The notes under the pieces are model-generated. The model searched no databases. It was given only the letters and a program-made list of their open reading frames with translations, and was not told where the DNA came from. DNA of 64,000 bases from Candidatus Methylomirabilota bacterium. GTDB lineage: Bacteria > Methylomirabilota > Methylomirabilia > Methylomirabilales > Methylomirabilaceae. Positions 37,282 to 64,000 of the stretch are shown here, one piece after another (the stretch's first letter is position 1; each line of letters begins with the position of its first letter). A program made the translations under genes and the position numbers. Where the stretch lies: assembly GCA_028870115.1 (NCBI GenBank), contig JAGWQH010000107.1:1-64000 (forward strand), given 5' to 3'.

Positions 37282-37725
37282 ATGAGCGACCAACGGAAGA
37301 TTGTGATTGTTACGCCGGAGTTATCGATCAGGCAGCAGATCTTCAGTCGCGTGGCGGCGAAGGGGTACCCGGCTGTTGCTGTCGAAAGAGGGTACGATGC
37401 CTTGTTGACCGTTGTCGAGCAGAACGTCGGGCTGGTGATTCTCGACCTCTCGATCGACGAGTCCGCGGGCGTAAAGACCGTAGAGATCCTGCGAAAGATT
37501 CGACCTCGTTTGCCCCTGGTGGTCATGTCCGGTGATCGGTCGCTTGAAGCGGGTCGCGAAGTCCTTCAGCATGGCGTCTTCTATTACCTGCTCAAGCCTT
37601 TTGATCTTGAGGAGCTTGATCAGATTGTGGAGAGCGCCTTGACCTCGAATAGGCAACGGGCCGCAGGAATGGAAAAGAGGGTGTACGAATGCAGGCCGGC
37701 GGGCGAGAGGGGAGGGGCGGCATGA
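37282..37725 (+). CDS. Response regulator receiver protein
   Basis: This 147-residue protein is a receiver domain with phospho-acceptor Asp in LVILDLSID near 55, VVMSGDR and Lys in YLLKPFD near 108. A 30-residue Arg-rich tail follows, with no recognisable output domain. It resembles the isolated receivers found next to multi-domain hybrid kinases; the kinase at 42272 is a possible partner. Its stop overlaps the start of the beta-propeller gene (ATGA). Confidence 0.82.
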   Translation: MSDQRKIVIVTPELSIRQQIFSRVAAKGYPAVAVERGYDALLTVVEQNVGLVILDLSIDESAGVKTVEILRKIRPRLPLVVMSGDRSLEAGREVLQHGVFYYLLKPFDLEELDQIVESALTSNRQRAAGMEKRVYECRPAGERGGAA

Positions 37726-38831
37726 CGGCAGTCCGTCGTACGGTGAGTATCGGTATCTTGGCGATGGCGTCGCTGCTGATCGTTCGCTCGACTGCGCTGG
37801 CGCACGGGGCAGGTGTGCGCGGCACGCAGGCGCTGTATGTCGCGAATGAGGGCTCGGATACGGTCTCGGTGATCGATATCGGGGCAATGAAGGTGACCGG
37901 CACCATGGCTGTGAGCTCCGGCCCGGAGCATGTCGCAATCAGTCCGGATCGACATTATGCCTTTATCGTATGTGGCCATTCAACCGAGGTCTGGATTCTG
38001 GCTTTGCCCGCGCGCACTGTCGTCGCCGCGGTGGCCAATGCGACGGGCCCGGGAGGCCGGACTGTGTTTGGAGCCGGCGCGACCTACGCCTATGTCACCA
38101 ACAGTCTATACAGCCGAGTGACGGTGATTGAGCCTGCCACCGGAAAGAAGGTGGCGATGATCCCGGTGGGAGAAGCGGCGACCAAGATCAGCATCTCTCC
38201 GGATGGGAGTCATGCCTATGTTCCCAGCGAGCGGTCCCATTCCGTCGCGGTGCTGAACCTTTCGCTGAACGTCGTCGCGGCGGAGCTGCCGATCGCTGTG
38301 AAGCCTTATGCCGTCGAGATCTCTCCTGATGGTAAATACCTGTTGGTCTCCAGTCCTGATTCAAACAGCGTCACCGTCATAGAGGCTGCAACCCTGGTGT
38401 CGCTGCGCAGAATCCCCGTCGGTGACGACCCCCATCACGTAGTGTTCGGTCCCGGTGGGGCCTTCGCATATATTCTAAATAGGGGCTCGGATAGCCTGAG
38501 CGTGATCCAGATGGCGAATCAACAGGTGGTAGCGACTATCCCCGTGGGGAGGGAGCCGAGCGACGCCGACATTACGCCGTCCGGCCACTATATCTATGTG
38601 ACCAACATGGGGAGCGGCGACGTGTCGGTCATTTCAACACAGACCGGCGCCGTGGTAGGGACGATCCCGGTAGGAACCCGTCCCCACGATATCGTCATCT
38701 CAGGGGACGGGCGGTACGCCTTCGTGGCCAACACCGGATCGAATGACATCTCCGTGATCAACCTGCTGTCCCAGACAACGGTAGGGCGGGTGCCGGTCGG
38801 CAAACGTCCCAGTGGGATGGCTCTGTGGTAG
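37722..38831 (+). CDS. Secreted YVTN-type beta-propeller protein
   Basis: This 369-residue protein has a signal peptide ending near ALAHGAG and about seven repeats of the YVTN/NHL-like blade, e.g. ALYVANEGSDTVSVIDI, YIYVTNMGSGDVSVIST and YAFVANTGSNDISVINL, each followed by a G-xx-I/V-PVG turn. Such propellers are exported scaffolds; some bind metals or haem d1-like cofactors, but I see no residue pattern for that. It is translationally coupled to the response regulator. Function unknown. Confidence 0.82.
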   Translation: MTAVRRTVSIGILAMASLLIVRSTALAHGAGVRGTQALYVANEGSDTVSVIDIGAMKVTGTMAVSSGPEHVAISPDRHYAFIVCGHSTEVWILALPARTVVAAVANATGPGGRTVFGAGATYAYVTNSLYSRVTVIEPATGKKVAMIPVGEAATKISISPDGSHAYVPSERSHSVAVLNLSLNVVAAELPIAVKPYAVEISPDGKYLLVSSPDSNSVTVIEAATLVSLRRIPVGDDPHHVVFGPGGAFAYILNRGSDSLSVIQMANQQVVATIPVGREPSDADITPSGHYIYVTNMGSGDVSVISTQTGAVVGTIPVGTRPHDIVISGDGRYAFVANTGSNDISVINLLSQTTVGRVPVGKRPSGMALW

Positions 38832-38841
38832 GCTGCAACAG

Positions 38842-39258
38842 ATGACGCAGCTTTCGGAGATCATGAATCGAGCGCTGATTACCGTAGACACGTCCGCCTC
38901 GCTACGCAGGGCTCAACAAATGCTGGATCAGCATAACATCCGCCATCTGTTTGTGGTGGACGGCAGACGCCTGGTTGGGATCGTTACCGATCGCGATCTT
39001 CGAAAGGCGGCTCCCTCTTCCAAGTCGCCGTTGACGGCCCATGAACGCGAGGAGTTTATGGACGAATTGAAGGTGGTGGAGATCATGTCGCGCAAGCTGA
39101 TCACGGCCTCTCCGACGACGACGGTGCGGGAGGCGGCGAAGGTCATGGTTGGAGAAAAGATCGGCTGCCTGCCGGTCGTGGATCGCAAGACACTGGTTGG
39201 AATCGTGACCGAGACCGATCTGCTCGAGATACTGGTCCGGGGAAAGGAGGCGTCATGA
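38842..39258 (+). CDS. Tandem CBS-domain protein ahead of the PFOR gene
   Basis: This 138-residue CBS pair reads LSEIMNRALITVDTSASL ... GIVTDRDLRKAAPS and VVEIMSRKLITASPTTTV ... GIVTETDLLEIL. It is closely similar to the first 130 residues of the CBS-ACT protein at 53711, including the DRD-KKAAPS stretch. It overlaps the 2-oxoacid oxidoreductase gene by four bases, so it may sense adenylate charge and control that enzyme directly. An earlier ATG at 38812 lies inside the propeller gene. Confidence 0.85.
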   Translation: MTQLSEIMNRALITVDTSASLRRAQQMLDQHNIRHLFVVDGRRLVGIVTDRDLRKAAPSSKSPLTAHEREEFMDELKVVEIMSRKLITASPTTTVREAAKVMVGEKIGCLPVVDRKTLVGIVTETDLLEILVRGKEAS

Positions 39259-41213
39259 CCGGCGAACGGTTTCCTTTTCCTGGCATTGCGGCGACAGCGG
39301 ATGGCTCGGCGGCAGTCGTGTGGGTCGACTCGCACATTACGCAAGGCGCCTGCGCCTATCCGATTACCCCCTCCACCAATATGGGAACCGGATACCAGGT
39401 AGAGGTTGCAAACGGGACACGCAACCTCTGGGGTGAGCCGCTCTTTTTCATCGAGCCCGAGTCGGAGCATAGCTCCGCATCCGCGTGTGAAGGGTTTGCG
39501 CTGGCAGGGGGGCGGGTCTCGAACTTTACCTCCGGTCAGGGGCTGGTGCTGATGAAGGAGGTGCTCTACACTATCGCAGGGAAGCGGCTCCCGGCGGTCT
39601 TCCACATCGGCGCCCGCGCGCTGACCTCCCAGGCCCTGAATGTCCACGCTGGACATGACGACGTGATGGCCGTAGCGGATGTCGGCTGGGGCATGCTCTT
39701 TGCGAAGAACGCCCAGGATGCGGCCGATCTGTCGCTCATCGCCCGCCGCGCCGCCGAAGAGGGCGAGACCCCCTTCATGACTGTGCAGGACGGCTTCCTC
39801 ACCACCCACACCATTGAGAACCTCCTGCTTCCGGAGCCTGAGCTGATGAAGGAGTTTATCGGGGACCCGCATGGCGGCACGCGCCTGCGCAACCTCATGA
39901 ACCCTTTGCAGCCGATCATGAGCGGGGTTGTGCAGAATCAGGACAGTTACATGAAAGGCAAGATCGCCCAGCGGTTCTTCTATGATCGTCTGCCGACGAT
40001 TGTCGAGGGGGTGATGGAGCGGTTCTATACCCTGACAGGCCGCCGGTATGGCCTGGTGGAGGCGTACCGGATGGAGGATGCCGACTACGCCATTGTGGGG
40101 ATGGGGGGGATGGTCGAGACCGCCATGGCGACCGTCGATTACCTGCGACAGCACCGCGGGGTTCGAGCAGGCGCCCTTCATGTGACCTGTTTCCGCCCAT
40201 TTCCGGGTCGGCAGATCGTCGAGGCGACGAAGCACCTGAAAGCGATGGCGGTAATTGAACGGATGGATAATCCGCTGGCCGAATCGAATCCCCTTACTGC
40301 TGAGATCAAGGCGGCGCTTGCCGATGCGCTGACGGGCGCGCCGGGGTTCCTGTCGATAGGGCGGATGCCGATCATCTATTCCGGCTCTGCCGGGCTGGGC
40401 AGCCGGGATATCCGTCCAGGCGACCTGGCGGCCGCGATAGACAATATGCGGCGCGACGATGGCGGGTCTCGCTACTTTGTCGTGGGAATCAAGCATGACC
40501 TGGCGCTCGTGCCCACCGAAGATCCGGACGTTCGGCCGGCCGGCACCTTCTCAATGCGCGGCCATTCGGTCGGCGGATTCGGATCGGTCACGACCAACAA
40601 GGTGATCGCCACGATTGTCGGCGACCTCTTCGGCCTGAAGGTCCAGGCCTACCCCAAGTACGGGTCCGAGAAGAAGGGGCTGCCTACGACCTACTATCTG
40701 ACGGTTGCCAGGGAGCGAATCCGCACCCATTGCGAGCTGACACAGGTCGATTTCGTGCCCCTCAACGATGTCAATGCCTTCAATCTCGGCAACCCGTTGG
40801 CCGGCCTGGCGACAGGCGGCATGGTTTTTATCCAGACCGACAAAAAGACACCGGAGGAGGTCTGGACACGAATCCCTGACTATGCGAAGCGTATCATCCG
40901 CGAGCGAAATATTCGGGTTCTGGCCTTGGACACTGTGAAGATTGCGCGCGAGGTCGCCAGCTCTGCCGACCTGGAGCAACGGATGCAGGGGATTGTGCTG
41001 TTAGGGATCTTTCTCCGCTGTACGTCGTTTCTGCGCGAACAGCGTCTCGACGAGGAGCAGGTCTTCTCGGCGGTGGAGCGGTCGCTGCGGAAGTACTTTG
41101 GCAAGCGGGGCGAACAGGTGGTTCGGGACAACCTGGCGGCTGTGAGGCGGGGCTATACCGAGGTCTTCGAGGTCCCAGCGGAGACGATCGCGGGAGTAGG
41201 GTTGGTCGGCTGA
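39255..41213 (+). CDS. porA: Pyruvate:ferredoxin oxidoreductase, fused alpha and gamma parts
   Basis: This 652-residue protein is the first half of a 2-oxoacid:ferredoxin oxidoreductase. Residues 1 to about 400 are the alpha (pyrimidine-binding) part with AYPITPSTNMG, FIEPESEHSS, NFTSGQGLVLMKE. Residues about 415-640 are the gamma part with GHSVGGFGSVTTNKV. The thiamine-diphosphate and ferredoxin parts are on the separate protein at 44878. Together they cover the domains of NifJ-type enzymes, which interconvert pyruvate + CoA with acetyl-CoA + CO2. GGAGG inside the CBS gene end serves its start. Pyruvate is the likely substrate by similarity to NifJ, but other 2-oxoacids are possible. Confidence 0.87.
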   Translation: MTGERFPFPGIAATADGSAAVVWVDSHITQGACAYPITPSTNMGTGYQVEVANGTRNLWGEPLFFIEPESEHSSASACEGFALAGGRVSNFTSGQGLVLMKEVLYTIAGKRLPAVFHIGARALTSQALNVHAGHDDVMAVADVGWGMLFAKNAQDAADLSLIARRAAEEGETPFMTVQDGFLTTHTIENLLLPEPELMKEFIGDPHGGTRLRNLMNPLQPIMSGVVQNQDSYMKGKIAQRFFYDRLPTIVEGVMERFYTLTGRRYGLVEAYRMEDADYAIVGMGGMVETAMATVDYLRQHRGVRAGALHVTCFRPFPGRQIVEATKHLKAMAVIERMDNPLAESNPLTAEIKAALADALTGAPGFLSIGRMPIIYSGSAGLGSRDIRPGDLAAAIDNMRRDDGGSRYFVVGIKHDLALVPTEDPDVRPAGTFSMRGHSVGGFGSVTTNKVIATIVGDLFGLKVQAYPKYGSEKKGLPTTYYLTVARERIRTHCELTQVDFVPLNDVNAFNLGNPLAGLATGGMVFIQTDKKTPEEVWTRIPDYAKRIIRERNIRVLALDTVKIAREVASSADLEQRMQGIVLLGIFLRCTSFLREQRLDEEQVFSAVERSLRKYFGKRGEQVVRDNLAAVRRGYTEVFEVPAETIAGVGLVG

Positions 41214-41230: not shown

Positions 41231-41626
41231 ATGGCGGAGGAGCTGGTCAGAGACTGGATGCACCGGGGTGTGATCACCTGCGGACCTGAGACGTCCATCC
41301 AGGCGGTGGCCGACGCGATGAAGACGCACGATATCAGCGCGTTGGTGGTGGTGGACGAGGGTGGGGACGCGGTCGGCGTGATCTCCCGTACCGATCTCGT
41401 CAACGCGCGGTTTGTCGAGCCGTATCTTAAGCACTGGCGCGGCCTGACCGCCAAGCATCTGATGACCTCCCCCGTCATCAGCGTCTCTGATACCACCCCG
41501 CTTGCCGAGGCGGCGGCGCGGCTTCGCGACAGGAAGATCCACCGGCTGGTGGTGATCGAGAGACACGGACCGCATGAGAAGCCGATCGGCATCCTCTCGG
41601 TGACCGATCTGGCAGGGACATTGTGA
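41231..41626 (+). CDS. Tandem CBS-domain protein
   Basis: This 131-residue CBS pair reads VRDWMHRGVITCGPETSI ... GVISRTDLVNARF and AKHLMTSPVISVSDTTPL ... GILSVTDLAGTL. It follows the PFOR alpha/gamma gene by 17 bases with its own GAGAGG site. It is a probable nucleotide sensor acting on nearby enzymes. The DUF559 element begins directly after its stop. Confidence 0.85.
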   Translation: MAEELVRDWMHRGVITCGPETSIQAVADAMKTHDISALVVVDEGGDAVGVISRTDLVNARFVEPYLKHWRGLTAKHLMTSPVISVSDTTPLAEAAARLRDRKIHRLVVIERHGPHEKPIGILSVTDLAGTL

Positions 41627-41740: not shown

Positions 41741-42091
41741 ATGATCCTGGCCTACAATAAGAACCTTAAAGGTTTTGCTCGCTCCCTGCGAAATAACATG
41801 ACCGATGCCGAGCGAACACTGTGGTCCATGATCAGACGAAAGCAAGCGAAAGGGCGTCTCTTTTCGCGTCAGAAGACAATTGACAATTACATTGTAGATT
41901 TTTACTGCGCTTCAGCCTCGCTCGTCATCGAACTTGATGGCGGACAACATTATACGTCGGATGGTCGCGAGAAGGACCAGCGGCGCGATGCTGACTTGGC
42001 GGCGCGGGGGTTGAACGTGTTAAGGTTTTCTGATCGGGACGTACTGACAAATATTGAAGGAGTACGAGAAGAGATCTGGAAACATCTGTGA
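41741..42091 (+). CDS. DUF559-family (Vsr-like) endonuclease-fold protein
   Basis: This 116-residue protein has the DUF559 plan, related to very-short-patch repair nucleases: LRNNMTDAERTLWSMIRRKQ, then FSRQKTIDNYIVDFYC (catalytic Asp), LVIELDGGQHY (Glu/Asp) and LNVLRFSDRDVLTNIEGV. The biochemical role of the family is unproven. No ribosome binding site is visible; the start abuts the left repeat. It is flanked by inverted repeats and lies between genes that belong together, so it looks like an inserted unit. Confidence 0.8.
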   Translation: MILAYNKNLKGFARSLRNNMTDAERTLWSMIRRKQAKGRLFSRQKTIDNYIVDFYCASASLVIELDGGQHYTSDGREKDQRRDADLAARGLNVLRFSDRDVLTNIEGVREEIWKHL

Positions 42092-42100
42092 GGGGAACGG

Positions 42101-42222
42101 AGGGAGAAACCCCCTTCGATCCCCCTTTGCCAAAGGGGGAGGGGATTGCCGATGCCTACTTGCCCGTGCGTGTCTATACGTAGACAGGTTCACCCACGCT
42201 CATTCCGGAAGAACCTTATTAT
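42101..42222 (-). repeat. Right inverted repeat of the DUF559 element
   Basis: GAGAAACCCCC and CCCCCTTTGCCAAAGGGGG (42103-42139) are the inverted counterpart of 41707-41740. ACGCTCATTCCGGAAGAACC (42196-42215) mirrors the left outer end, 18 of 21 positions by my alignment. Confidence 0.65.
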
Positions 42223-42271
42223 CAAGTTTCCCTCACCCCCTAATCGGGGGTAAGGAGCAACAAAACAGACT

Positions 42272-44773
42272 ATGGAAGATCGAATTCGCATACTCTACGC
42301 GGAGGATGATCCGAGCGACGCGGCGTTGACCATGAGGCGCTTTGCCCTGGATGCGCCCGAGTGTGACCTGGACATCGTAGGCACGGGGCGCGCCTGCTTG
42401 GACGGCCTGGCACAGCACGACTATGACCTGCTGCTGCTCGACTATCATCTTCCGGATATGGACGGCCTTGACGTCATGCAAACGGCGACGCGGCAGGGGT
42501 ATACACTGCCCGTCGTGCTGATAACCGGAGCGGGCAATGAAGACCTGGTGGTCCAGGCGATCCGCTTGGGCGTGACCGACTATGTGACGAAGCGAGGCGA
42601 TTATCTCACCGCCTTGCCTCAGACGTTGCGCAGGATCGCAGGGGCGCATCGCAAGAAGGGGGCCATCGGACACTTACTCGTACCGAGTCGGCCGCGCATC
42701 CTCTACGTGGAACACCACGCATCCGATGTTGAGCTGTTGTTGCGTCATTTCGGGCAGGCTGCGCCGCACCTGACTGTGCAACTGGCGTACTCCTGTCGGA
42801 ACGCCTTGGACCTGTTGCGAGAGGCCCAGGATTCGCGTGAGGCCGCTCCCTACGATCTGGTGCTGATCGACCTGCGCATGCCGGAAATGAGCGGACTGGA
42901 TCTGTTGCGCGAGACCAAAGATCGTGGGATATCGCTGCCGTTCGTCATCGTGACCGGCCAGAGAGATGAAGAGGTGGCGGTTGCTGCGCTGAGATTGGGC
43001 GCCTACGATTACATCGTCAAACGCGAGGGGTATCTGACCCAGTTGCCGCATGTCATCGACAACGCCATCGCCCGCTTTCATCTGAATCAGGCGGCCGGCC
43101 GTTTACAGGCAGAGTTGGGAGTGCTCAACCGTTTGCTGGAACACAGGGTGCGAGAGCGGACGGCGGCACTTGAACAGGAGATCACTGAGCGCAAACAGGC
43201 CGAGCACGCGCTTGCCGCGTCGGAACGCCTGCGGCGATCGATCCTGGACTCGATCGAAGAAGGGGTTTACGGACTGGATCTCGACGGGCGTATCATCTTC
43301 GAAAATCCGGCGGCACTGAAGATATTCGGATGGCAGGCGCACGAGATACTCGGGCAGCATTCCCATACGCTCATGCACCATCACCGTGCGGATGGTAGCG
43401 TCTATCCGGTTGAGGACTGCCCGACCTACCACACCTTACATGACGGGCAGATCCGGCATGTGCACAATGAGGTCTTCTTCCGCAAAGACGGGACCAGTTT
43501 TCCTGTCGAGTACACCGCGTCGGCGCTGCGAGACGATGCCGGCGTCATCACCGGTGTGGTCGTCAGCTTTCGCGACATCACCGAGTTCAAACAGTTGCAG
43601 GAGCAGTTCGTGCAATCCCAGAAGCTGGAGGCGATCGGGGTGCTGGCGGGCGGCATCGCCCACGATTTCAACAATAACCTCTCCGCCATTCTCGGTTTCA
43701 GCGATCTGGCCCTGGAGAAACTCCGTCCGGATGACCCGGTGGGCCGCTACCTCGAACAGGTCAAGAAAGCGGGGGAGCAGTCCGCCGCGCTGACACGCCA
43801 GTTGCTGGCCTTCAGCCGCAAACAGCTCCTGCAGCCCAGGGTGCTCGAGCTGAATGCGCTGATCGCCGAGGATACGACGATGCTGAAGCGGCTGATCGGC
43901 GAGGAGATCGACCTGCACAGGCAACTCGATCCTGAGCTGGGCCACATCAGGGCCGACCCGGCGCAGCTCGAACAGGTCCTCATGAACCTGGTCGTCAATG
44001 CCCGCGACGCCATGCCGCAGGGCGGTACGCTGACGATCGAGACCGGCAATGTCGAACTCGACAAGCCCTATGCCTGTGTCTGCGGGCCCATCGCCATTCC
44101 ATCGGGGCGCTACGTGCGGCTGGCCGTGATCGATACCGGGTGCGGGATGGATGCGGTCACCCGAGCCCGCATCTTCGAGCCGTTCTTTACCACGAAGGAG
44201 TTGGGCAAAGGAACGGGCCTCGGTCTCTCAACCGCTTACGGGATCGTCAAGCAAAGCGGCGGCTACATCTGTGTCTACAGTACGCCGGGGCAGGGCGCCA
44301 CTTTTGAGATCTATCTGCCGCAGGTCGACGCGCCCCTGGAGGCGGGGCCCCTCCGCGAGTTCGTTACGCCCTTGCGGCCCGGTGCCGCCACCGTACTGCT
44401 GGTGGACGACGACGAGCTGGTTCGCACCATCGCGCGTGAGACGCTGCAAGTGCAGGGCTACACCGTCCTCGAGGCGATGAATGGCGGCGGCGCCTTGCTC
44501 ATCAGCGAGCGGTACCAGGGGCCGATCGATCTGCTGTTGACCGATGTCGTGATGCCGTATATGAGCGGGTCGGAACTGGCGCAGCGGCTGACGGCGCAGC
44601 GTCCGGCGACGCGCGTGCTCTACATGTCGGGCTATACGGACGACACGCTCGCGCCGCACGGCGTCTTAGCGCCGGGTACGATGTTGTTGGCCAAACCGTT
44701 GACCCCGGAGAACCTGCTGCGCACGGTACAAGAGGCGCTCGTGGTGTCGGGTCATAGTGCGGGAGGGGCTTGA
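42272..44773 (+). CDS. Hybrid histidine kinase: receiver-receiver-PAS-kinase-receiver
   Basis: This 833-residue cytoplasmic protein has two receivers at the N-terminus (Asp in LLLLDYHLPD near 54 and in LVLIDLRMPE near 200). A coiled coil follows near 280-315, then PAS (about 320-440), HisKA with GGIAHDFNNNLSAILG, HATPase with NLVVNARDAMPQGG and GTGLGLSTAYGIV, and a C-terminal receiver (LLLTDVVMPYMSG). The HDFNN form of the H-box is typical of this hybrid class. No membrane segment or DNA-binding domain is present, so the signal is internal and output is through phosphotransfer. It lies between the two halves of the PFOR system. Confidence 0.9.
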   Translation: MEDRIRILYAEDDPSDAALTMRRFALDAPECDLDIVGTGRACLDGLAQHDYDLLLLDYHLPDMDGLDVMQTATRQGYTLPVVLITGAGNEDLVVQAIRLGVTDYVTKRGDYLTALPQTLRRIAGAHRKKGAIGHLLVPSRPRILYVEHHASDVELLLRHFGQAAPHLTVQLAYSCRNALDLLREAQDSREAAPYDLVLIDLRMPEMSGLDLLRETKDRGISLPFVIVTGQRDEEVAVAALRLGAYDYIVKREGYLTQLPHVIDNAIARFHLNQAAGRLQAELGVLNRLLEHRVRERTAALEQEITERKQAEHALAASERLRRSILDSIEEGVYGLDLDGRIIFENPAALKIFGWQAHEILGQHSHTLMHHHRADGSVYPVEDCPTYHTLHDGQIRHVHNEVFFRKDGTSFPVEYTASALRDDAGVITGVVVSFRDITEFKQLQEQFVQSQKLEAIGVLAGGIAHDFNNNLSAILGFSDLALEKLRPDDPVGRYLEQVKKAGEQSAALTRQLLAFSRKQLLQPRVLELNALIAEDTTMLKRLIGEEIDLHRQLDPELGHIRADPAQLEQVLMNLVVNARDAMPQGGTLTIETGNVELDKPYACVCGPIAIPSGRYVRLAVIDTGCGMDAVTRARIFEPFFTTKELGKGTGLGLSTAYGIVKQSGGYICVYSTPGQGATFEIYLPQVDAPLEAGPLREFVTPLRPGAATVLLVDDDELVRTIARETLQVQGYTVLEAMNGGGALLISERYQGPIDLLLTDVVMPYMSGSELAQRLTAQRPATRVLYMSGYTDDTLAPHGVLAPGTMLLAKPLTPENLLRTVQEALVVSGHSAGGA

Positions 44774-48575: not shown

Positions 48576-48908
48576 GCGCGCCGGGCACCATCAGGACCGG
48601 TTGCGCGATTCTCATACGATACGTGTATCGACCTCTGAGAGGTGGGGTACCGGTGCGTCATCAACGTAGCCTTCAACAGTGGTCAGCTATAGCGGTTGAC
48701 CGAAAACCTCGCTTATTCCCTCAATCGACCCAATTTGGTATTCAGATGCTCTAGCCGATTGGTGATATCGGGCATAAATTGTGTGTAGGAGATGTGGCGC
48801 TATAAGCATCAGGGCGATAGTGCGTAAGGAGCTTATGGCGCATCTGTAGGGACGGAAGATCACGTATTGCAGCCGACCCGAAGGCGGCGCGGCCGACAGG
48901 AGGGACGA
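48576..48908 (+). other. Intergenic gap with small hairpins
   Basis: No gene seen. CGATACGTGTATCG (48617-48630) and ACCTC-TGA-GAGGT (48631-48643) are adjacent dyads just after the radical SAM gene and may act as a terminator, though no U-tract follows. Confidence 0.4.
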
Positions 48909-51371: not shown

Positions 51372-51396
51372 CACAGGAGCAGCAAAAAAGACCACC

Positions 51397-54456: not shown

Positions 54457-54491
54457 TCGAGTGAGTGGCGGACCATTATACCGGTGCTGTG

Positions 54492-55304
54492 ATGCAGAAG
54501 ATCCTGATGATGGTGGACGGCTCGTTCGCCGCGGAGGCGGGCGCGCGCTATGCGCTCGCTCTGGCCAAGGCCTGCGAAGCGGAACTCGATTTGCTCTTTG
54601 TCGCGGCGGATCAATCGGCGTCTGCGATGAAACGCGCCGAGGAGTCGCTGCTGCGCCTGCTTCGGCAGGCGCATACTCTTGGTCTGAAGGCGCGCAGCGT
54701 GACGGAGATCGGTGATCCCGTCCGGGTCATGCGGGCATACGTGGCGCGCGAGGGGATTACTTTGGCCATGGCCTCCGTGACAGGACCGGAGGTTGCGCGG
54801 CACCTCTTGCGCGAGGTTTCCTGCGCCATGCTGCTGGTGCGGGTGGTCCATCCGGGACGGATGGCGTCGCCACACGAGATTCTGGTCCCGGTCTACGGCG
54901 GTGAGTTCGAAGGCGGCGGCTTCGAGGCGGCGGCCGATCTCCTGGCCAACCTTGGAGTGTACTGGCACGCCCAAATCGTCCTTTTCCAGTTGAGACAGCC
55001 GTTGACGCGACTGTTCGATCGCCGGCGCGTTGGAGAGGAGACATTGGAACAGGCGGAACGCAAGCTGCACGGATTCATCGCCGCGCTCTCCCGCAGGGGT
55101 CTGGCGCCGGGGACGCGGGTCTCGTGGGGTCGTCGCCACGGCCCTGGCATTACGGCTGAGGCGGCGGCCAGGCGTCATGATCTCATCTTTGTGGGCACGA
55201 AGGGGCCGAAGCGCTTTCTGCAGTGGTTACGTATCGGAACCGTTGACCACCTGGTGCGGAAGAGCCCGTGCGACCTGATGCTCTTCCGTCCTGCCGCCGC
55301 CTGA
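54492..55304 (+). CDS. Universal stress protein, two tandem domains
   Basis: This 270-residue protein has two UspA-like domains: QKILMMVDGSFAAEAGARYA ... CAMLLVRVV, then HEILVPVYGGEFEGGGFEAA ... SPCDLMLFRP. The second ends with GTKGPKRFLQWLRIGTVDHL, a modified ATP loop; the first lacks a complete loop. A GTG at 54465 is an alternative start; neither has a good ribosome binding site. The ATPase gene follows after 34 bases. Confidence 0.82.
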   Translation: MQKILMMVDGSFAAEAGARYALALAKACEAELDLLFVAADQSASAMKRAEESLLRLLRQAHTLGLKARSVTEIGDPVRVMRAYVAREGITLAMASVTGPEVARHLLREVSCAMLLVRVVHPGRMASPHEILVPVYGGEFEGGGFEAAADLLANLGVYWHAQIVLFQLRQPLTRLFDRRRVGEETLEQAERKLHGFIAALSRRGLAPGTRVSWGRRHGPGITAEAAARRHDLIFVGTKGPKRFLQWLRIGTVDHLVRKSPCDLMLFRPAAA

Positions 55305-55338: not shown

Positions 55339-58095
55339 ATGCAGATTCACCGGCTGTCAGTCGAGGAGGCGCTGAAGGCCCTTGGAACCACCGACCAGGG
55401 GTTGAACGAGGCCGAGGCAGCGAGGCGTCTCAGCGAATTCGGCCTCAACGAACTTCAGGCCGTAGACAAAATACCGGTCCTCGCCATGCTGGGGCGGCAG
55501 TGTACGCACTTTCTGGCGCTCCTGCTGTGGGCGGCGGCGGCGCTGGCGTTCGTGGCGGACTGGATGAAACCCGGGGAGGGGATGGATCTGCTCGCCTGGG
55601 CCATTATCGGGGCGATTGGAGTGAATGCCCTCTTCTCCTTTGCGCAGGAGTATAAGGCAGAGCGGGCGATCAAGGCCTTAAGGCGCCTCCTGCCGATGCG
55701 CGTGAAGGTTGTTCGAACCGGCGAGATTACGGAGGTTCCGGCATCCGATCTGGCGCCCGGTGATCTCGCGATCCTGGCTGAGGGCGATCGAGTGCCTGCC
55801 GATGGGCGGGTGACCGCTGCGGTCCAGTTCCGGGTCGACAATGCGTCGCTGACGGGCGAATCGGTGCCCAAGAGTCGCACTGCTGAGGCCGCGACAGAGG
55901 GGCCGCTCGTGGAGAGCGCCAATATCGTTTTTGCCGGCACCACTGTCTTATCGGGGACGGCGAGGGTAGTCATCTTTGCGACAGGGATGAACACGGAGTT
56001 CGGCAAGATCGCTCATCTGACTTCCGGGATCGAGGCCGAAATGAGTCCGCTGCAGGAGGAGATCCGAAAACTCACCCGACTGATCGCGGCGGTCTCTACG
56101 GGCATCGGGCTCGCCTTCTTTGGGTTCGGGGTGCTGATCGGTCGGAGCTTCTGGGAGAATTTTGTCTTTGCGGTAGGAGTCCTGGTAGCCAACGTCCCGG
56201 AAGGCCTGCTCCCGACGGTGACACTGGCATTGGCGGTGGGCGGGCAGCGGATGGCCAAACGGAAGGCGCTCGTGAAGAACCTGGTATCGGTAGAGACACT
56301 GGGATGCGCCACAGTGATCTGTACCGACAAGACCGGGACCCTCACGGAGAATCGGATGACTGTGACGCGCATCTACATCGACGGCCGCGAGATTCGAGTC
56401 TCGGGCAGTTCCGTGACCACAGAGGCAGGTGAACCGGTGGCCCCTGAATTGCTGAGGCAGTGGGCGTTGCTTTTCGCCATCGCAGTCGGGTGCAACAATG
56501 CCAGCCGCCGCCACGACCGGGATGGCTCAGAATCGACGTTCGTCGGTGACCCAACGGAGATCGCCTTGCTGCAGTGTGCGGGCGCGTTGTTGCCGAAGGG
56601 ACCAGACGTGTTGCCTCGAATTGGGGAGTTCTCGTTTGATGCCGACCGGAAGCGGATGACTACGATTCACGCGGCGTCGTCGGCGAGCAAGGTGGCCTAC
56701 GTAAAAGGCGCTCCGGAGACGGTGCTGCCCATCTGTCGCTCGCTCCTGCACGATGGACGCGCGGTTCCTCTGGAAGAGGTCGATCGTAAAGCGATCATGG
56801 AGCGGCTGAACGTGTTTGCCGGATCGGCCCTGCGCGTATTGGCCTTGGCGTACCGGGAGTTGCCGGAGGCCGATCGGCTGCCGTTGATGGAAGAGGCGGA
56901 GCGGGATTTGACCTTCGTCGGCCTGGTGGCCATGTTCGATCCGCCAAGGCCGGAGGTTCCCGAGGCGGTGGCGAGATGCGAGCGGGCCGGGATTAAGCCG
57001 ATCATGATCACCGGGGACAACAGCCGCACTGCCCTGGCGATCGCGCGAGCCATCGGGATGGTCCGGAACGAGCAGGTGTCGGTTCTGGAGGGGAACCGGA
57101 TCGAACGGATGCAGGACGAGGAACTGAAGGCCGCCCTTGCCGGTCCGGAGATCCTCTTTGCCAGGATGACCCCCACACAGAAGATGCGCGTCGTGATGCT
57201 CCTGAAGGAGATGGGCGAGGTAGTGGCTGTCACAGGTGACGGGGTGAATGACGCGCCGGCCTTGAAGAAGGCCGACATCGGCATTGCTATGGGGATCACC
57301 GGGACCGACGTCGCCAAGGAGGCGGCCGACATCATCCTGCTCGATGACAACTTCGCCACCATCGTCAACGCGGTCGAAGAGGGTCGGGCGGTCTACGAGA
57401 ATATCCGCAAGTTTCTCAATTACATTCTGGCCCACACGCTGCCCGAGTTGGTCCCGTATCTGGCCTCGGTGGTCTTCCGGCTCCCGCTCCTGCTTACGGT
57501 GATCCAGATCCTCGGGGTTGATCTGGGGACCGATCTGCTCCCGGCTCTGGGTCTCGGGGCCGAGCCGCCGGATGCGAATACGATGAATCGCCCGCCGAGG
57601 TCCAGAGACGAGCGTCTTTTGAATGTCCCTTCGCTGGTCAGATCGTATCTGTTTCTCGGACCGATCGAGGCGGCTGCGGCCATGACTGCCGGGCTCTGGT
57701 ATCTCACGAGTGGCGGATGGGAGTGGGGCATCGACCTGCCGGCCGCAAGCCCGCTCTACAGGCAAGCGACAACGGTGGCGTTCGCTGCGATCGTCGTGTG
57801 TCAAGTAGCGAATGTCTACGCGTGTCGGAGTCCGAGGGGATCAGTCCTCTCCATGGGTATCTTCACAAATCGACTCATCGTCTGGGGTATTGGGGTCGAG
57901 CTCTCCATCCTCGGCCTGATTGTCTACAGCCCGATTGGCCATCGGATCTTCGGGACCGACGCTTTTCTGGGAGGGTTCTGGTGGCTTCTGATCGGCTGCG
58001 CGACGCTGCTGCTGCTTCTGGAAGAGGCGAGGAAGAGGATCGTTCGCCGCTTCGACCTGGTGAAAGGACTTCGTTATCAGGAGGGGACCGCATGA
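55339..58095 (+). CDS. Type II cation-translocating P-type ATPase
   Basis: This 918-residue ion pump has a cation-ATPase N-terminal domain, the A domain with SLTGESVPKS, the M4 ion-site motif NVPEGLLPTVTLALAVGG, phosphorylation site ICTDKTGTLTENRMTV, an N domain with VKGAPETV, the hinge GDGVNDAPALKKADIGIAMG, and six C-terminal helices. The M6 segment reads LGVDLGTDLLPALGLGAEPP: LGTD as in Na+/K+- and H+/K+-type pumps rather than SERCA's VTDG. Na+, K+ or H+ transport is therefore as likely as Ca2+. It uses ATP to maintain ion balance across the inner membrane. The next gene overlaps by four bases. Confidence 0.9.
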   Translation: MQIHRLSVEEALKALGTTDQGLNEAEAARRLSEFGLNELQAVDKIPVLAMLGRQCTHFLALLLWAAAALAFVADWMKPGEGMDLLAWAIIGAIGVNALFSFAQEYKAERAIKALRRLLPMRVKVVRTGEITEVPASDLAPGDLAILAEGDRVPADGRVTAAVQFRVDNASLTGESVPKSRTAEAATEGPLVESANIVFAGTTVLSGTARVVIFATGMNTEFGKIAHLTSGIEAEMSPLQEEIRKLTRLIAAVSTGIGLAFFGFGVLIGRSFWENFVFAVGVLVANVPEGLLPTVTLALAVGGQRMAKRKALVKNLVSVETLGCATVICTDKTGTLTENRMTVTRIYIDGREIRVSGSSVTTEAGEPVAPELLRQWALLFAIAVGCNNASRRHDRDGSESTFVGDPTEIALLQCAGALLPKGPDVLPRIGEFSFDADRKRMTTIHAASSASKVAYVKGAPETVLPICRSLLHDGRAVPLEEVDRKAIMERLNVFAGSALRVLALAYRELPEADRLPLMEEAERDLTFVGLVAMFDPPRPEVPEAVARCERAGIKPIMITGDNSRTALAIARAIGMVRNEQVSVLEGNRIERMQDEELKAALAGPEILFARMTPTQKMRVVMLLKEMGEVVAVTGDGVNDAPALKKADIGIAMGITGTDVAKEAADIILLDDNFATIVNAVEEGRAVYENIRKFLNYILAHTLPELVPYLASVVFRLPLLLTVIQILGVDLGTDLLPALGLGAEPPDANTMNRPPRSRDERLLNVPSLVRSYLFLGPIEAAAAMTAGLWYLTSGGWEWGIDLPAASPLYRQATTVAFAAIVVCQVANVYACRSPRGSVLSMGIFTNRLIVWGIGVELSILGLIVYSPIGHRIFGTDAFLGGFWWLLIGCATLLLLLEEARKRIVRRFDLVKGLRYQEGTA

Positions 58096-58424: not shown

Positions 58425-58440
58425 ACATCGATGCCTTACA

Positions 58441-58538: not shown

Positions 58539-58573
58539 TTTGCTAACTACTACACCGTAAAGGAGGCTCTCTC

Positions 58574-59137
58574 ATGCTGGCCGGGTTTCCAAAGCAGGTC
58601 ACACTTCAGACCGGAACGATCGTGACGATTCGCCCAATGGTCAAAGAGGATGCGGCAAGGCTCCATGAATTTTTCTGTAGAGTTCCGCGCGAAGACCGTC
58701 TCTTTCTGCGGGACGATGTCTCCCTGCGGGAGGTGATCGATGCGTGGGCGGAAGAGCTCGACTACGAGAAGGTCCTGCCGCTTGTGGCAGAGGTGGACGA
58801 CACCATCGTGGCGGATGTCACTTTGCATCGTCGTAAATTCGGCTGGACCAGCCATGTGGGCAAGGTGCGCCTGGTCGTCGATGGAGAGTATCGGGCGAAG
58901 GGCCTCGGGACGCTCATGCTCGAGGCGCTGATCGAGACCGCCAGGAAGGCGGGCCTTGAAATTCTCGTCGCCGAAATCATGGGAGGCCAGACAGAGGCGC
59001 TGAAAATCCTCAAGCGGCTGGGATTCACAAAAGAGGCGGTCTTCTACAACTATGTCAAGGACCAGATCGGGGAGGAGCACGACCTCGTGGTGATGATGAA
59101 GAACCTGCAGATTGAGCCGGCCATGGTTCCCTTTTAA
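58574..59137 (+). CDS. GNAT-family N-acetyltransferase
   Basis: This 187-residue protein has the GNAT fold: TIRPMVKEDAARLHEFF at the start, KVRLVVDGEYRAKGLGTLML with the acetyl-CoA pyrophosphate loop (R-A-K-G-L-G), and ALKILKRLGFTKEAVFYNYV. It may acetylate a protein lysine; similar GNATs in stress loci regulate acetyl-CoA synthetases, but the substrate is not evident here. Perfect AAAGGAGG lies upstream. Confidence 0.85.
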   Translation: MLAGFPKQVTLQTGTIVTIRPMVKEDAARLHEFFCRVPREDRLFLRDDVSLREVIDAWAEELDYEKVLPLVAEVDDTIVADVTLHRRKFGWTSHVGKVRLVVDGEYRAKGLGTLMLEALIETARKAGLEILVAEIMGGQTEALKILKRLGFTKEAVFYNYVKDQIGEEHDLVVMMKNLQIEPAMVPF

Positions 59138-59303: not shown

Positions 59304-59344
59304 GGTAGATATACCACAACACGACGAGAGTGAAGAGTGAGACA

Positions 59345-61789
59345 ATGACCAGCCCGTTGAAACCTGAGGCATTGCGTAAAGTCTGCTCGCCGGAAAGTCT
59401 CCCCTTCGAAGGGACGGATGAGCTCAAGCCCCTGGAGGAAGTCGTATCCCAAGAACGCGCCGTCGAGGCCATCACGTTCGGCGTTGGTATTAAGAGCGAG
59501 GGGTTTAATCTCTTCGTCCTCGGACCTGCCGGAACCGGCAAGACCACGGCGATCAAGCGCTTCCTGGCCAGCGAGGCGGCGAAGCTCCCGACTCCTCCAG
59601 ATTGGTGTTACGTCAATAACTTTGCCGATCCGCAACGCCCCCGCGGGCTCTGCCTGCCGCCAGGTCGCGCCCGCGTCTTCCAGACCGACTGCGAGCGGCT
59701 GCTGGAGGAGCTGAAGACGGGCGTCCCCAGAGCCTTTGAGTCCGAAGCATATGAGCAGAACCGACAGACGATCCTGGAGGATTTGCAGAGACAGACAAGC
59801 GACGAGTTGGAGGCGCTGCGCAAGCGCGCGGATGCGTTTGGGTTCGGGCTGGCTAAAACGGCCAGCGGCTTCATGATCATCCCCATGCTTCGAGGCAAGC
59901 CGTTGAAACCGGAAGGGTTTGAAGGCCTCGATGAGGAGACCAAGCAGCAGGTTAACCTGAGGATGGAGGAGGTACAGAAGGATCTGGCCGCGACACGCCG
60001 CCGGATCCGCGATCTCGAACGGGAGGCGAAGAACCGGCTCGACGGGATAGACCGGGAGGTCGCCACCTCGGCGGTTGATCACCTGATCGAGGAGGTTAAG
60101 GATGGGTATGCGGATCACGCCGAGGTGCAGGCGCACCTTGAGGCGATCCGCGAGGACGTCATCGCCAATGTGGATCTGTTTCGCCGGGATCAAAGCGGAG
60201 CGCAGAACCCGCCGGACCCGACGGCGATGCTGCGGCAAGGGATGGACCCCTTCGACCGGTATCGCGTCAATGTCCTGATCGAACATGGGGAAAACGGCGG
60301 CGCGCCGGTCGTCGTCGAACCGCACCCGACCTGTCAGAACCTGCTGGGGCGGGTCGAACATCAGGTTCACATGGGCGCCCTCTACACCAACTTCCTGATG
60401 GCCAAAGCGGGCGCCTTGCACCGGGCCAATGGGGGCTTCCTGGTCGTGGAAGCGATGGAGTTGCTCAAGCAGTTCTTTGCGTGGGACCAACTGAAGCGGA
60501 CACTGAAGAACCGCCGGATCAGGATCGAAGAGCCAGGGGAGCAGTTCCGCCTCTATAGCACGGTGACGCTTGAGCCCGAGCCGATCCCCCTCAACGTGAA
60601 GGTGGTCCTCATCGGCAGCCCCTGGCTCTACTATCTGCTGCACGCTTATGACCCGGAGTTTCAGGAGCTGTTTAAGGTCCAGGCCGAGTTCAGCGATCGC
60701 GTAGCCCGGACGCCCGACACGATCCTGACCTTCGCCCGCCTGTTATCTACCTGTTGCGGGGCCGAGGGACTCAAACCGTTCGACCGTGGCGCCGTGGCGA
60801 AGCTGGTGGAGCACAGCTCGCGCCTGGTGGAGGATCAGGAAAAACTTGCCACGACGTTCAACCATCTCCTGGATGTAGCCCGCGAGGCCTGCTTCCTGGC
60901 CCAGCAGAACGGACATCAGCGGGTCATGGCGGAGGACGTGCGGCGGGCCATCCACGCCAAGATCCGGCGCGCCAACCGGCTGGAGGAGCAGTTGCAGGAA
61001 CTGGTCCTTGACCGGACCCTGCTGGTTGATACCGAGGGGGCCGTGGTTGGTCAAGTAAACGGGATCGCGGTGATCCCGCTTGGTGAGTATCACTTCGGCA
61101 AGCCGAGCCGCATTACGGCGCGCACCTTCCTTGGGCGCGGCGGCATCGTCGATATCGAACGCGAGGCCCGGATGGGCGGCCGCATTCACAGCAAAGGCGT
61201 GTTGATCCTGTCGGGCTATCTGGGCGGCCGCTATGTGCAGCAGACGCCCCTGGCCCTGTCGGCGAGTCTTGCCTTCGAACAGGTGTATGAAGAGGTGGAG
61301 GGCGACAGCGCCTCTTCAGCGGAGTTATACGCGATCCTTTCAAGCCTGTCCGGGTTACCGATCAAACAGGGGTTTGCAGTCACAGGGTCGGTCAATCAGC
61401 GGGGCGAGGTCCAGGCTATCGGGGCCGTGAATGCCAAGATTGAGGGGTTTTTTGATGTGTGCCGCGCAAGGGGCTTGACGGGAGAGCAGGGGGTGCTGAT
61501 CCCAGCGAGCAATGTGCGGCATCTGATGCTCAGAGAGGATGTGGTGGAGGCGGTCGCCGCGAGGCAGTTTCAGATCTATCCTGTCGAGACCATTGATGAG
61601 GGGATTGCCTTGCTGACCGGGCAGGAGGCGGGAGATCGCGGTCCGGATGGGAGTTTTCCTGAAGGTAGCGTGAATGGGCTGGTGCAGGCGCGGCTGCGCG
61701 AGATGGCGGAGCAGGCGAAGGCGTACGGCGCCGAGAGTCAGATGTCGTCCAGCTCAGACCGCCATGACGAGCACGAGGCCACGCCGTGA
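59345..61789 (+). CDS. Lon-like (S16) protease with AAA_32-type ATPase domain
   Basis: This 814-residue protein has the plan of the Lon-related YcbZ/AAA_32 group: an N-terminal ATPase core with Walker A GPAGTGKTTA near 65, a long inserted coiled coil (about 150-250), a second ATPase block (GGFLVVEAMELLKQF), then the S16 protease domain. The catalytic Ser is in GDSASSAELYA near 657 and the Lys in AVNAKIEGFFDV near 700. It degrades or remodels proteins under stress. GTG at 59330 is an alternative start. No substrate-binding LAN domain as in classical Lon is present. Confidence 0.88.
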   Translation: MTSPLKPEALRKVCSPESLPFEGTDELKPLEEVVSQERAVEAITFGVGIKSEGFNLFVLGPAGTGKTTAIKRFLASEAAKLPTPPDWCYVNNFADPQRPRGLCLPPGRARVFQTDCERLLEELKTGVPRAFESEAYEQNRQTILEDLQRQTSDELEALRKRADAFGFGLAKTASGFMIIPMLRGKPLKPEGFEGLDEETKQQVNLRMEEVQKDLAATRRRIRDLEREAKNRLDGIDREVATSAVDHLIEEVKDGYADHAEVQAHLEAIREDVIANVDLFRRDQSGAQNPPDPTAMLRQGMDPFDRYRVNVLIEHGENGGAPVVVEPHPTCQNLLGRVEHQVHMGALYTNFLMAKAGALHRANGGFLVVEAMELLKQFFAWDQLKRTLKNRRIRIEEPGEQFRLYSTVTLEPEPIPLNVKVVLIGSPWLYYLLHAYDPEFQELFKVQAEFSDRVARTPDTILTFARLLSTCCGAEGLKPFDRGAVAKLVEHSSRLVEDQEKLATTFNHLLDVAREACFLAQQNGHQRVMAEDVRRAIHAKIRRANRLEEQLQELVLDRTLLVDTEGAVVGQVNGIAVIPLGEYHFGKPSRITARTFLGRGGIVDIEREARMGGRIHSKGVLILSGYLGGRYVQQTPLALSASLAFEQVYEEVEGDSASSAELYAILSSLSGLPIKQGFAVTGSVNQRGEVQAIGAVNAKIEGFFDVCRARGLTGEQGVLIPASNVRHLMLREDVVEAVAARQFQIYPVETIDEGIALLTGQEAGDRGPDGSFPEGSVNGLVQARLREMAEQAKAYGAESQMSSSSDRHDEHEATP

Positions 61790-61847: not shown

Positions 61848-62855
61848 ATGTCGGAGTTCAGACAGGATAAGGCGACGCGGGAGTGGATCGTGATCGCCAC
61901 TGAACGGGCCAGACGCCCGGACGATTTCCGAGTGGAGCGGAGCCCGAGAGATCCGACTTTACCCGAAGAGTCTTGCGCATTCTGCCCTGGTAACGAAGCC
62001 ATGACACCGCCGGAGTTTATGGCCTACCGCCACGGAGGCGAGGCGAATGGCTCGGGCTGGTGGATCCGGGTGGTGCCGAACAAGTACCCCGCCCTCACCC
62101 CGCAGGGAAGTCCGGATCGGTGGATGGCCGAAGGGTTCTTTCGGAAGATGGACGGCGTCGGACGACACGAAGTGATCATCGACGGTCCACGTCACGACCG
62201 CCCTCTTCCACTGATGGACGACCAGCAGGCGGAGGAGATCCTCTGGGTCTATCGGGAACGCTTTCTGGTGCTGCAACAGGATGCTCGGATCAAGCTGATC
62301 ATCATTTTCAAGAATCACGGCCTGGCGGCCGGCAGCTCAATCCAACACCCGCATTCGCAGATCATCGCAACCTCGGTGGTCCCGCTCAATATTCGTAACA
62401 AGCTGTACGAGGCGGCCCGCTACTACGACGAACATGGGCGGTGTGTCTACTGCGATATGGTGCGTGAGGAACTGCAGGACGGCAAGCGGATCGTGATGGA
62501 GAATGAGGCGTTCGTCGTGTACCACCCATTTGCGTCGCGAGTGCCGTTTGAAACCTGGATCGTCCCGAAGGCCCACGAGGCGTGCTTTGCCCTGATTCCG
62601 CCTCATGAATCGAAAGTGTTTGCGCGTACTCTAAAGAGCGCATGGGCGGGGCTCCATTCGGCGCTGAACGATCCGGATCTCAACTATGTGCTCCATACCC
62701 GGCGCAGTGTGCACGAGGTGAGCGAGTCGTATCACTGGCACCTGCAGATCATGCCTCGTTTTACCACTGCGGCCGGGTTCGAGCTGGGGTCGGGAATCTA
62801 TATCAATACAGCGTTACCTGAGGAGACAGCGGCATTCTTACGCGAGTACGAGTAG
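61848..62855 (+). CDS. galT: Galactose-1-phosphate uridylyltransferase homologue
   Basis: This 335-residue protein of the HIT superfamily has zinc ligands CAFCPGN near 45 and CVYCDMV near 202, and the nucleotidylated active-site motif QHPHSQIIA near 166. The late block YHWHLQIMPRFT is also typical. It transfers UMP between glucose-1-phosphate and galactose-1-phosphate, though such homologues in stress loci may act on other sugar phosphates (ADP-glucose phosphorylase-like). GGAG lies upstream. It lies 91 bases before the PEP synthase gene. Confidence 0.87.
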   Translation: MSEFRQDKATREWIVIATERARRPDDFRVERSPRDPTLPEESCAFCPGNEAMTPPEFMAYRHGGEANGSGWWIRVVPNKYPALTPQGSPDRWMAEGFFRKMDGVGRHEVIIDGPRHDRPLPLMDDQQAEEILWVYRERFLVLQQDARIKLIIIFKNHGLAAGSSIQHPHSQIIATSVVPLNIRNKLYEAARYYDEHGRCVYCDMVREELQDGKRIVMENEAFVVYHPFASRVPFETWIVPKAHEACFALIPPHESKVFARTLKSAWAGLHSALNDPDLNYVLHTRRSVHEVSESYHWHLQIMPRFTTAAGFELGSGIYINTALPEETAAFLREYE

Positions 62856-62946
62856 AAGGATCGAGCAGGCTGTGTCTCGGCGTCATACCCTGGCAATGAC
62901 ACGTTCACGAAGGCGATTCTACGATATCTGGTCGAGAGGATAGGCG

Positions 62947-64000
62947 ATGCAGGCGGAGACGTTAGTATGCTGGTTTGATGCGATCGATCTCGCCGACATC
63001 CCGACGGTAGGCGGCAAGAATGCGTCGCTCGGCGAGATGTATCAACACCTCAAGGCGCTTGGCGTTCGGGTTCCCTACGGGTTCGCCATTACAGCCGCCG
63101 CCTATCGGCGCTTCCTTGGAGAGAGTGGTTGCGAGGCGAAGATCAGGGCGCAACTGAAAGAGCTGAATACGGCTGACATCCTGAATCTACGCGCCCGTGG
63201 AGAGGCGATCCGGACGATCATCCTCGAGGCTTCGCTGTCGCTTGTACTTCAGAACGAGATCGTAGCCGCCTATGAGAGATTGTGCGCGGAGTATGGGCCG
63301 AACACCGACGTGGCAGTGCGGAGCAGTGCCACCGCCGAGGATCTGCCAGATGCCAGCTTTGCCGGTCAGCAGGAGACCTATCTGAATGTCCATGGGATCC
63401 CAAGTCTGCTGGAGGCCTGCCGGAAGTGCTTCGCCTCGCTCTTTACCGATCGCGCGATCGCCTATCGTGAAGAGAAGAGATTTGACCATCTGAGCGTGGC
63501 CCTTTCCATCGGGGTGCAGAAGATGGTCCGTTCAGACCTTGGGGCAGCCGGCGTCATGTTCACCGTCGATACGGAAACCGGTTTCCGCGATTGTATCCTC
63601 ATCAATGCCTCATATGGCCTTGGCGAGAGTGTGGTCCAGGGCTCGGTAACGCCGGATGAGATGTACGTGTTCAAGCCCACGCTGCTCAAGGGTTTCCGCC
63701 CGATCCTCCAGCGGACGCTGGGGAGCAAAGAATGGAAGCTGGTGTACGATGAGGGAGGAAGCAAACAGACCAGGAATGTCCCAGTTCCTCGTGAGGATCG
63801 TCAGCGCTTCGCTATTGACGACGACGAGATCCTCCAACTCGCCCGCTGGGGGTGCGCCATCGAGGCGCATTACACCCGGAAGAGCGGCAAGTATACGCCG
63901 ATGGACATCGAGTGGGCCAAGGATGGCCGGAGCGGTGAACTGTTCATCCTGCAAGCCCGCCCGGAAACGGTGCAATCGGTCAAACGAATCGATCTATTGC
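62947..64000 (+). CDS. ppsA: Phosphoenolpyruvate synthase, N-terminal part (cut by the window end)
   Basis: The first 351 residues of a PEP synthase are present: PTVGGKNASLGEMYQHL at the start, VAVRSSATAEDLPDASFAGQ, LINASYGLGESVVQGSVTPD and DIEWAKDG...FILQARPETVQS, all from the ATP/pyruvate-binding domain. The swivelling His domain and PEP-binding domain would lie beyond the window. The enzyme makes PEP from pyruvate with ATP, supporting gluconeogenesis from the acetyl-CoA/pyruvate made by PFOR. AGAGGATAGGCG precedes the ATG. Confidence 0.93.
   Translation, partial: MQAETLVCWFDAIDLADIPTVGGKNASLGEMYQHLKALGVRVPYGFAITAAAYRRFLGESGCEAKIRAQLKELNTADILNLRARGEAIRTIILEASLSLVLQNEIVAAYERLCAEYGPNTDVAVRSSATAEDLPDASFAGQQETYLNVHGIPSLLEACRKCFASLFTDRAIAYREEKRFDHLSVALSIGVQKMVRSDLGAAGVMFTVDTETGFRDCILINASYGLGESVVQGSVTPDEMYVFKPTLLKGFRPILQRTLGSKEWKLVYDEGGSKQTRNVPVPREDRQRFAIDDDEILQLARWGCAIEAHYTRKSGKYTPMDIEWAKDGRSGELFILQARPETVQSVKRIDLL

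Follow-up and report, generated by a model that had tools for sequence, protein, structure and literature searches.

Gene Content of the Locus

The window analysed here is the whole stretch of 64,000 nucleotides formed by positions 1-64000 of a 73,569-base contig (JAGWQH010000107.1), which belongs to a genome of 2.8 Mb. The assemblies closest to this genome are those of Ca. Methylomirabilis and other Methylomirabilota (NC10), and the host is a member of the Methylomirabilis genus. Our subject is a block of genes running from position 37282 to the end of the window, which the original prediction had described as resembling a dormancy or low-oxygen survival regulon. Almost all of the genes named there were verified by Pfam and NCBIfam scans, all of them on the + strand: three CBS proteins, three universal stress proteins (USPs; one of them tandem), Hsp20, a BCAM0308-family protein, an APH/P-loop kinase pair, a type II P-type ATPase, a split pyruvate:ferredoxin oxidoreductase (PFOR), phosphoenolpyruvate (PEP) synthase, a Lon-like protease of the LonB/LonC-like type, a GNAT acetyltransferase, an archaeal-type methionine adenosyltransferase (MAT), a TIGR04053 radical S-adenosylmethionine (SAM) enzyme and a hybrid kinase. 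The features are as follows.

37227..37243, +, sigma-54 type -24/-12 promoter TTGGCATCGGCATTGCT, exact consensus
37282..37725, +, stand-alone response-regulator receiver domain (RR; PF00072)
37689..38831, +, exported beta-propeller of YVTN/lactonase type (PF10282, TIGR02276)
38812..39258, +, CBS pair protein 1 (PF00571 x2; many CBS proteins, Rv2626c/Hrp1 being one, are its relatives in the PDB)
39255..41213, +, 2-oxoacid (pyruvate):ferredoxin oxidoreductase (POR), alpha-gamma fusion (POR_N, PFOR_II, POR)
41231..41626, +, CBS pair protein 2 (PF00571 x2)
41741..44773, +, DUF559 nuclease-like gene and hybrid histidine kinase (Pfam), private insertion absent from relatives
44878..46560, +, 2-oxoacid:ferredoxin oxidoreductase beta subunit with Fe-S domain (TPP_enzyme_C, Fer4)
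46615..47121, +, universal stress protein 1 (PF00582)
47460..48575, +, TIGR04053 radical SAM/SPASM enzyme (462.7 bits, cut-off 395)
48867..49367, +, universal stress protein 2 (PF00582)
49373..50491, +, APH-like kinase of the Rv2004c N-half type (PF01636), 5 nt after USP2
50499..51071, +, APS-kinase-like P-loop kinase of the Rv2004c C-half type (PF01583/PF13671), 7 nt after APH
51500..51943, +, Hsp20 chaperone (PF00011)
51954..52475, +, BCAM0308-family protein, zinc ribbon and NMD3 eL22-like domain (NF040826; NMD3 homology)
52487..53689, +, archaeal-type MAT (NF003363)
53711..54355, +, CBS-CBS-ACT protein (CBS3), AcuB-like (PF00571 x2; ACT match weak, below cut-off)
54465..55304, +, tandem universal stress protein 3 (PF00582 x2)
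55339..58095, +, type II cation P-type ATPase (family-profile matches)
58574..59137, +, GNAT acetyltransferase (PF00583)
59330..61789, +, LonB/LonC-like ATP-dependent protease (PF13654, PF20436, PF20437)
61848..62855, +, galactose-1-phosphate uridylyltransferase (GalT; PF01087)
62947..64000, running on to contig position 65379, +, PEP synthase (PPDK_N, PEP-utilizers)

The strongest identifications were those of BCAM0308 through NF040826 (135.5 bits, cut-off 100), of the radical SAM enzyme and of the archaeal MAT (586.8, cut-off 557). Beyond position 64000 the block goes on with the rest of PEP synthase, a second Hsp20, an unclassified small open reading frame (ORF), phosphoglucomutase, glycogen phosphorylase and glucose-6-phosphate dehydrogenase; FtsH and GalT likewise flank the block or form part of it.

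Clustering and Conservation of the Block

The whole genome contains 8 USP and 12 CBS genes. For three USP genes within 26.7 kb the single-family p value is 4.6e-5, and for three CBS genes it is 1.8e-4. Three of each in one such span occurred in 0 of 200,000 random gene placements on the genome, a figure that is an upper measure of surprise, as random placement takes genes as independent and ignores tandem duplication. In addition, the three USPs and Hsp20 lie inside 9 kb, an arrangement of the type of the Burkholderia lxa locus (see below).

Within the genus, the gene order of the first half is RR–beta-propeller–CBS–POR–(CBS)–POR beta–(USP)–radical SAM–USP–APH–P-loop kinase, and that of the second half is Hsp20–BCAM0308–MAT–CBS–USP–P-type ATPase–GNAT–Lon–(GalT)–(PEP synthase)–Hsp20. 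Up to the ends of their contigs, G002-G008, G044, G045 and G070 hold to this order, and G033 follows most of it. Orthologues inside the genus diverge by 10-20%, and the order is nonetheless unchanged. The contiguity reported at first is thus real, being kept in about ten genus genomes, and loss of co-localisation in relatives, which had been named as grounds for giving up the idea, was not what we found: genes stay together within the genus, and partly in the order and the phylum.

Outside the genus the same gene types meet again in other arrangements. In family f4, one locus has APH–kinase–MAT–GNAT with USPs, CBS, POR and P-type ATPase close by, and a separate locus has GNAT–CBS–USP–CBS–CBS–USP–GNAT–Hsp20–BCAM0308; in family f6, the archaeal MAT is found beside GalT, CBS and USP genes, or beside P-type ATPase, USP and Lon. 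When 148 kb around the archaeal MAT outside the genus were compared with 328 kb of control regions, which were few and hand-picked by coordinate, 9 versus 2 USP genes (p 8e-4) and 10 versus 0 CBS genes (p 9e-6) were counted. Enrichment of USP and CBS genes near BCAM0308 outside the genus was weaker and came mainly from two f4 genomes; within the phylum, BCAM0308 occurs only in the order Methylomirabilales (21/95 genomes). Lon was unhelpful as an anchor, since no common neighbourhood was shared by the 77 distant genomes compared around it. A similar mixture lies on an Azospirillum plasmid, which carries P-type ATPase–ppsA–Hsp20–BCAM0308 together with two USPs, a histidine kinase and a Crp/Fnr regulator, and a search for APH on plasmids gave no match.

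The original prediction had counted the archaeal MAT, the TIGR04053 enzyme and the hybrid kinase as parts of the combination. The first two do belong to the conserved set, but the hybrid kinase was ruled out as a component: together with the DUF559 gene it is present only in the genome of the window and absent from every relative examined, where POR/CBS2 adjoins POR beta directly. We consider it probable that the block is a survival island kept by vertical descent in the order Methylomirabilales, with its best-preserved form in the Methylomirabilis genus.

Since a bacterial MetK is also encoded in 19 of 20 genomes checked, including the host (contig C105), the archaeal MAT was ruled out as the sole SAM synthetase and is a second, accessory one. 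Three genus genomes have a second, divergent bacterial MetK (G004:C48, G006:C10 and G008:C1:931834-932271), which brings them to three SAM synthetases each.

Transcription Units and Promoter

Gaps of 200-480 nt divide the block in several places, and gene spacing implies about five putative transcription units instead of one operon: RR to USP1; radical SAM; USP2–APH–kinase; Hsp20–BCAM0308–MAT–CBS3–USP3–ATPase; and GNAT and Lon–GalT–PEP synthase. Ahead of the first unit, TTGGCATCGGCATTGCT is a perfect sigma-54 promoter sequence and one of just four exact matches in the genome. In each of the seven genomes retaining an RR gene the site could be aligned, with GG and GC at -24 and -12, fixed spacing and the same gene downstream; in G003 the aligned -24 and -12 elements are kept, but not the exact consensus. 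Ahead of the beta-propeller gene, no exact match was seen in G004, G007 or G070, the first two of which are without RR.

A PAS histidine kinase and a sigma-54 response regulator, conserved in the genus, are encoded at window positions 7197-9874 (+), with the regulator at 8411-9874. The pair was rejected as a dedicated regulator of the island: in relatives, its orthologue is encoded at a great distance from the island, and G002 keeps the promoter without having a close orthologue of the regulator. A second exact sigma-54 match is located at 27831-27847 (+), upstream of a small unclassified ORF beside an RND efflux cluster, and a near copy of it, TTGGCATACCTCTTGCT, occurs near the same efflux genes in G003.

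A search of the window for the DosR box allowing up to 3 mismatches gave 0 matches, and the genes of the block showed no regulator of the DosR type. FNR-like palindromes numbered 66, versus 52.7 +/- 8.2 in shuffled sequences, which is no significant excess, and the block contained no exact site. With about five units and a sigma-54 type sequence as the sole strong conserved promoter, the words regulon and low-oxygen find no support in the sequence; the kind of system proposed does, given the similar mixtures on the Azospirillum plasmid, in the lxa locus and in a Bradyrhizobium gene set. NC10 bacteria are anaerobes: they do without oxygen, and generate some of their own from nitric oxide. Starvation, oxygen exposure or nitrosative stress may therefore equally well be the signal for the island instead of low oxygen.

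Homology of BCAM0308 to NMD3

The BCAM0308 family shows remote homology to NMD3, a large-subunit factor of archaea and eukaryotes; our literature search found no paper linking the two. The Pfam NMD3 model (PF04981) matched the window protein with 30.6 bits (cut-off 24.9) and 17 of 25 BCAM0308 members at E<=1e-3, the best with 1.2e-10. Where comparison of single sequences was uninformative, hhalign aligned an NMD3 profile built from 31 archaeal sequences with the BCAM0308 profile at a probability of 95.4% (P 1.9e-8, score 61) over residues 74-166, spanning 142-237 of 380 on the NMD3 template. In the controls, 60 column-shuffled NMD3 profiles scored at most 19 (probability <=1%) and 14 unrelated families at most 23, and NMD3 matches among 14 control genomes were confined to four archaea. 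The window copy was missing from the results of a six-frame genome scan with NMD3 at its own threshold, so for single sequences the match is close to the limit. An AlphaFold model built on three sequences is confident in its core (pLDDT about 90), and Foldseek returned the NMD3 chains 5t62, 7z34, 6lu8, 8hfr, 5t6r and 5h4p among its matches. The zinc ligands C45, C48, C78 and C81 (numbered from a start at 51936) are kept in 23-25 of the 25 members, with His at the fourth position in two.

NMD3 is composed of two treble-clef zinc fingers and eL31-like, eL22-like, SH3 and OB domains; the eL31-like domain interrupts its second finger, and after that finger comes the eL22-like domain, which reaches into the peptidyl-transferase centre (PMC6579518, PMC6393466). 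Of these parts BCAM0308 has only two: the second treble-clef finger, which contains a short insertion, and the eL22-like domain. We infer that BCAM0308 is a candidate ribosome-parking factor, which would bind the bacterial 50S subunit at the site that NMD3 uses.

Proposed Function and Alternative Explanations

The explanation that we favour is a survival island in which BCAM0308, as a shortened relative of NMD3, would park ribosomes, and we give it as a whole a probability of about 0.6. The proteins of the island, presumably co-expressed under stress, would help the cell through energy or redox stress: USP and CBS proteins may act as nucleotide sensors, Hsp20, Lon and FtsH in protein quality, and PFOR, PEP synthase and the glycogen enzymes in carbon and energy re-routing, while the cation pump, protein acetylation by GNAT and the second SAM synthetase would add further roles. 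The BCAM0308 protein, encoded in the Hsp20–BCAM0308–MAT–CBS–USP–ATPase unit, would under stress occupy the place of NMD3, i.e., the P site and the peptidyl-transferase centre, on the 50S subunit and so park or protect idle ribosomes, with Hsp20 meanwhile holding unfolded proteins.

Two other explanations concern the block as a whole, and both appear improbable to us. If it were a strict low-oxygen regulon, co-induced in its entirety by an oxygen-sensing regulator comparable to DosR or FNR/FixK, the gene overlap with the DosR regulon, the lxa locus and the Bradyrhizobium microoxia set would be expected, but neither the lack of a DosR box and of a significant enrichment of FNR-like palindromes, nor the division into about five units, the sigma-54 type of the sole conserved promoter found and the non-conserved, private hybrid kinase agree with it. 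The block might also be a loose neighbourhood of independent small stress operons that are adjacent by common descent in a young genus and have no joint function. The gaps between the units would fit, as would the solitary BCAM0308 of f5 genomes and most outgroups and the Lon surroundings of distant genomes, which are without such a set; against this stand the re-clustering of the same gene types, in another order, in f4 and f6, the enrichment of USP and CBS genes near MAT over controls, the improbability of three USPs and three CBS proteins in 27 kb, and an order kept despite the divergence of orthologues.

The role of BCAM0308 is a separate matter, and several observations weigh against the explanation that we favour. 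G002 has lost Hsp20, BCAM0308 and MAT, of which a 34-residue MAT remnant is left, while the remaining genes are kept; the unit is therefore dispensable. BCAM0308 has no USP or Hsp20 neighbours in family f5 of the order and in most tested non-NC10 genomes. Foldseek E-values were weak (9e-3 for the best NMD3 chain), and the BCAM0308 profile, searched against PDB sequences, gave chance matches only and no NMD3 chain. The first zinc finger and the eL31-like and SH3/OB domains of NMD3 are missing, and bacteria are not known to have the partners eIF6 and Lsg1, so ribosome binding may be lost or altered. BCAM0308 could instead be only a structural cousin of the eL22-like fold, working with Hsp20 as its chaperone partner or binding RNA with no link to the ribosome; Hsp20 adjoins it in two phyla and the profile match spans only the eL22-like part, but that match is specific to NMD3 with clean controls, and the preceding CxxC...CxxC zinc finger is common to NMD3 too, which makes this alternative rather unlikely. 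That the BCAM0308 family is an unrecognised bacterial ribosome-hibernation factor, built from the NMD3 domain of the P site and peptidyl-transferase centre, is a tentative proposal, to which we assign a somewhat better chance, at less than even odds. It extends to NC10, Pseudomonadota, Chloroflexota, Geobacteraceae and some other bacteria, several of which encode BCAM0308 in stress islands. With it, a hypoxia-locus protein known by number only gains a concrete molecular hypothesis, that of a bacterial piece of NMD3 which might fill the catalytic centre of the ribosome in dormancy, and, if true, archaeal and eukaryotic ribosome assembly factors would be linked with bacterial dormancy.

Other Features

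Gene starts were corrected for Hsp20, which begins near 51500 (not 51278) according to the orthologue start and a Shine-Dalgarno sequence, and for BCAM0308, at 51954; MAT probably starts at 52487. The ORF 57717-58424 was dropped as a gene because it overlaps the ATPase and has no family. The 180-aa ORF after the second Hsp20 (L009:4044-4586, +) has no Pfam or NCBIfam match and an aligned frame in most genus genomes; to judge from its composition, it is possibly a shadow frame belonging to another gene. A search for Rfam elements found none. Between genes, at 51390-51450 and 58440-58540, there are pyrimidine-rich/purine-rich inverted repeats (of the type CCCTCACCCC...GGGGAGG), which are not kept in relatives and look like dispersed intergenic repeats. 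Finally, an indoleamine 2,3-dioxygenase (PF01231, E 8e-48), an unusual gene for an anaerobic NC10 genome, is encoded at 16069-17322 (-).

Comparison with Known Systems

Dri and HibA are archaeal CBS ribosome-hibernation factors (PMC13324472). The CBS proteins of the island match chain 9e6q, a CBS protein that is probably Dri, among other CBS proteins, but they are two-CBS proteins with no HPF/RaiA domain; the likeness is generic and we do not claim membership.

The genes induced by microoxia in Bradyrhizobium diazoefficiens form an alphaproteobacterial set controlled by FixK2. They include USP, CBS, PEP synthase, phosphofructokinase, Hsp20 and GNAT genes (PMC6515984), and, as far as the accessible part of that report extends, the archaeal MAT and TIGR04053 are seen only in the island.

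The DosR regulon of Mycobacterium tuberculosis comprises USP, CtpF, Rv2004c, hspX and hrp1 (PMC4090907). The island resembles it in having USPs, a CBS protein, Hsp20 (compare HspX), a cation ATPase and APH/kinase genes. It differs in that the DosR regulon is dispersed, is defined by the DosR regulator and its box and responds to hypoxia or NO through DosR-DosS, whereas the island is contiguous and no such box was found in the window. Moreover, Rv2004c is a single protein, and the APH and P-loop kinases of the island are two adjacent genes. The recurrence of these gene types in the DosR regulon and in the lxa locus, as first proposed, holds for composition, with the exception of CBS3, which the weak C-terminal ACT domain match makes AcuB-like rather than Hrp1-like.

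The Burkholderia lxa locus has six USPs, an alpha-crystallin and BCAM0308, and its role in anoxic persistence has been published (PMC6127331, PMC9733578, PMC9060813, in the excerpts available). Loci of the lxa type are strongly induced when oxygen is low and are needed for persistence in anoxia. Like lxa, the island is a large cluster with several USPs, an alpha-crystallin/Hsp20 and BCAM0308; the archaeal MAT, TIGR04053, the APH/P-loop kinases, the split PFOR, the LonC-like protease and the sigma-54 site are additions with respect to those excerpts. Around BCAM0308 of Burkholderia stagnalis, FtsH was the only one of the window's families found. Because its gene types match the published hypoxia and dormancy sets and the mixture on the Azospirillum plasmid, we see the island as a probable survival cluster of the lxa/DosR kind, which would thus exist, in a conserved form of its own, in the anaerobic methane-oxidising NC10 bacteria.

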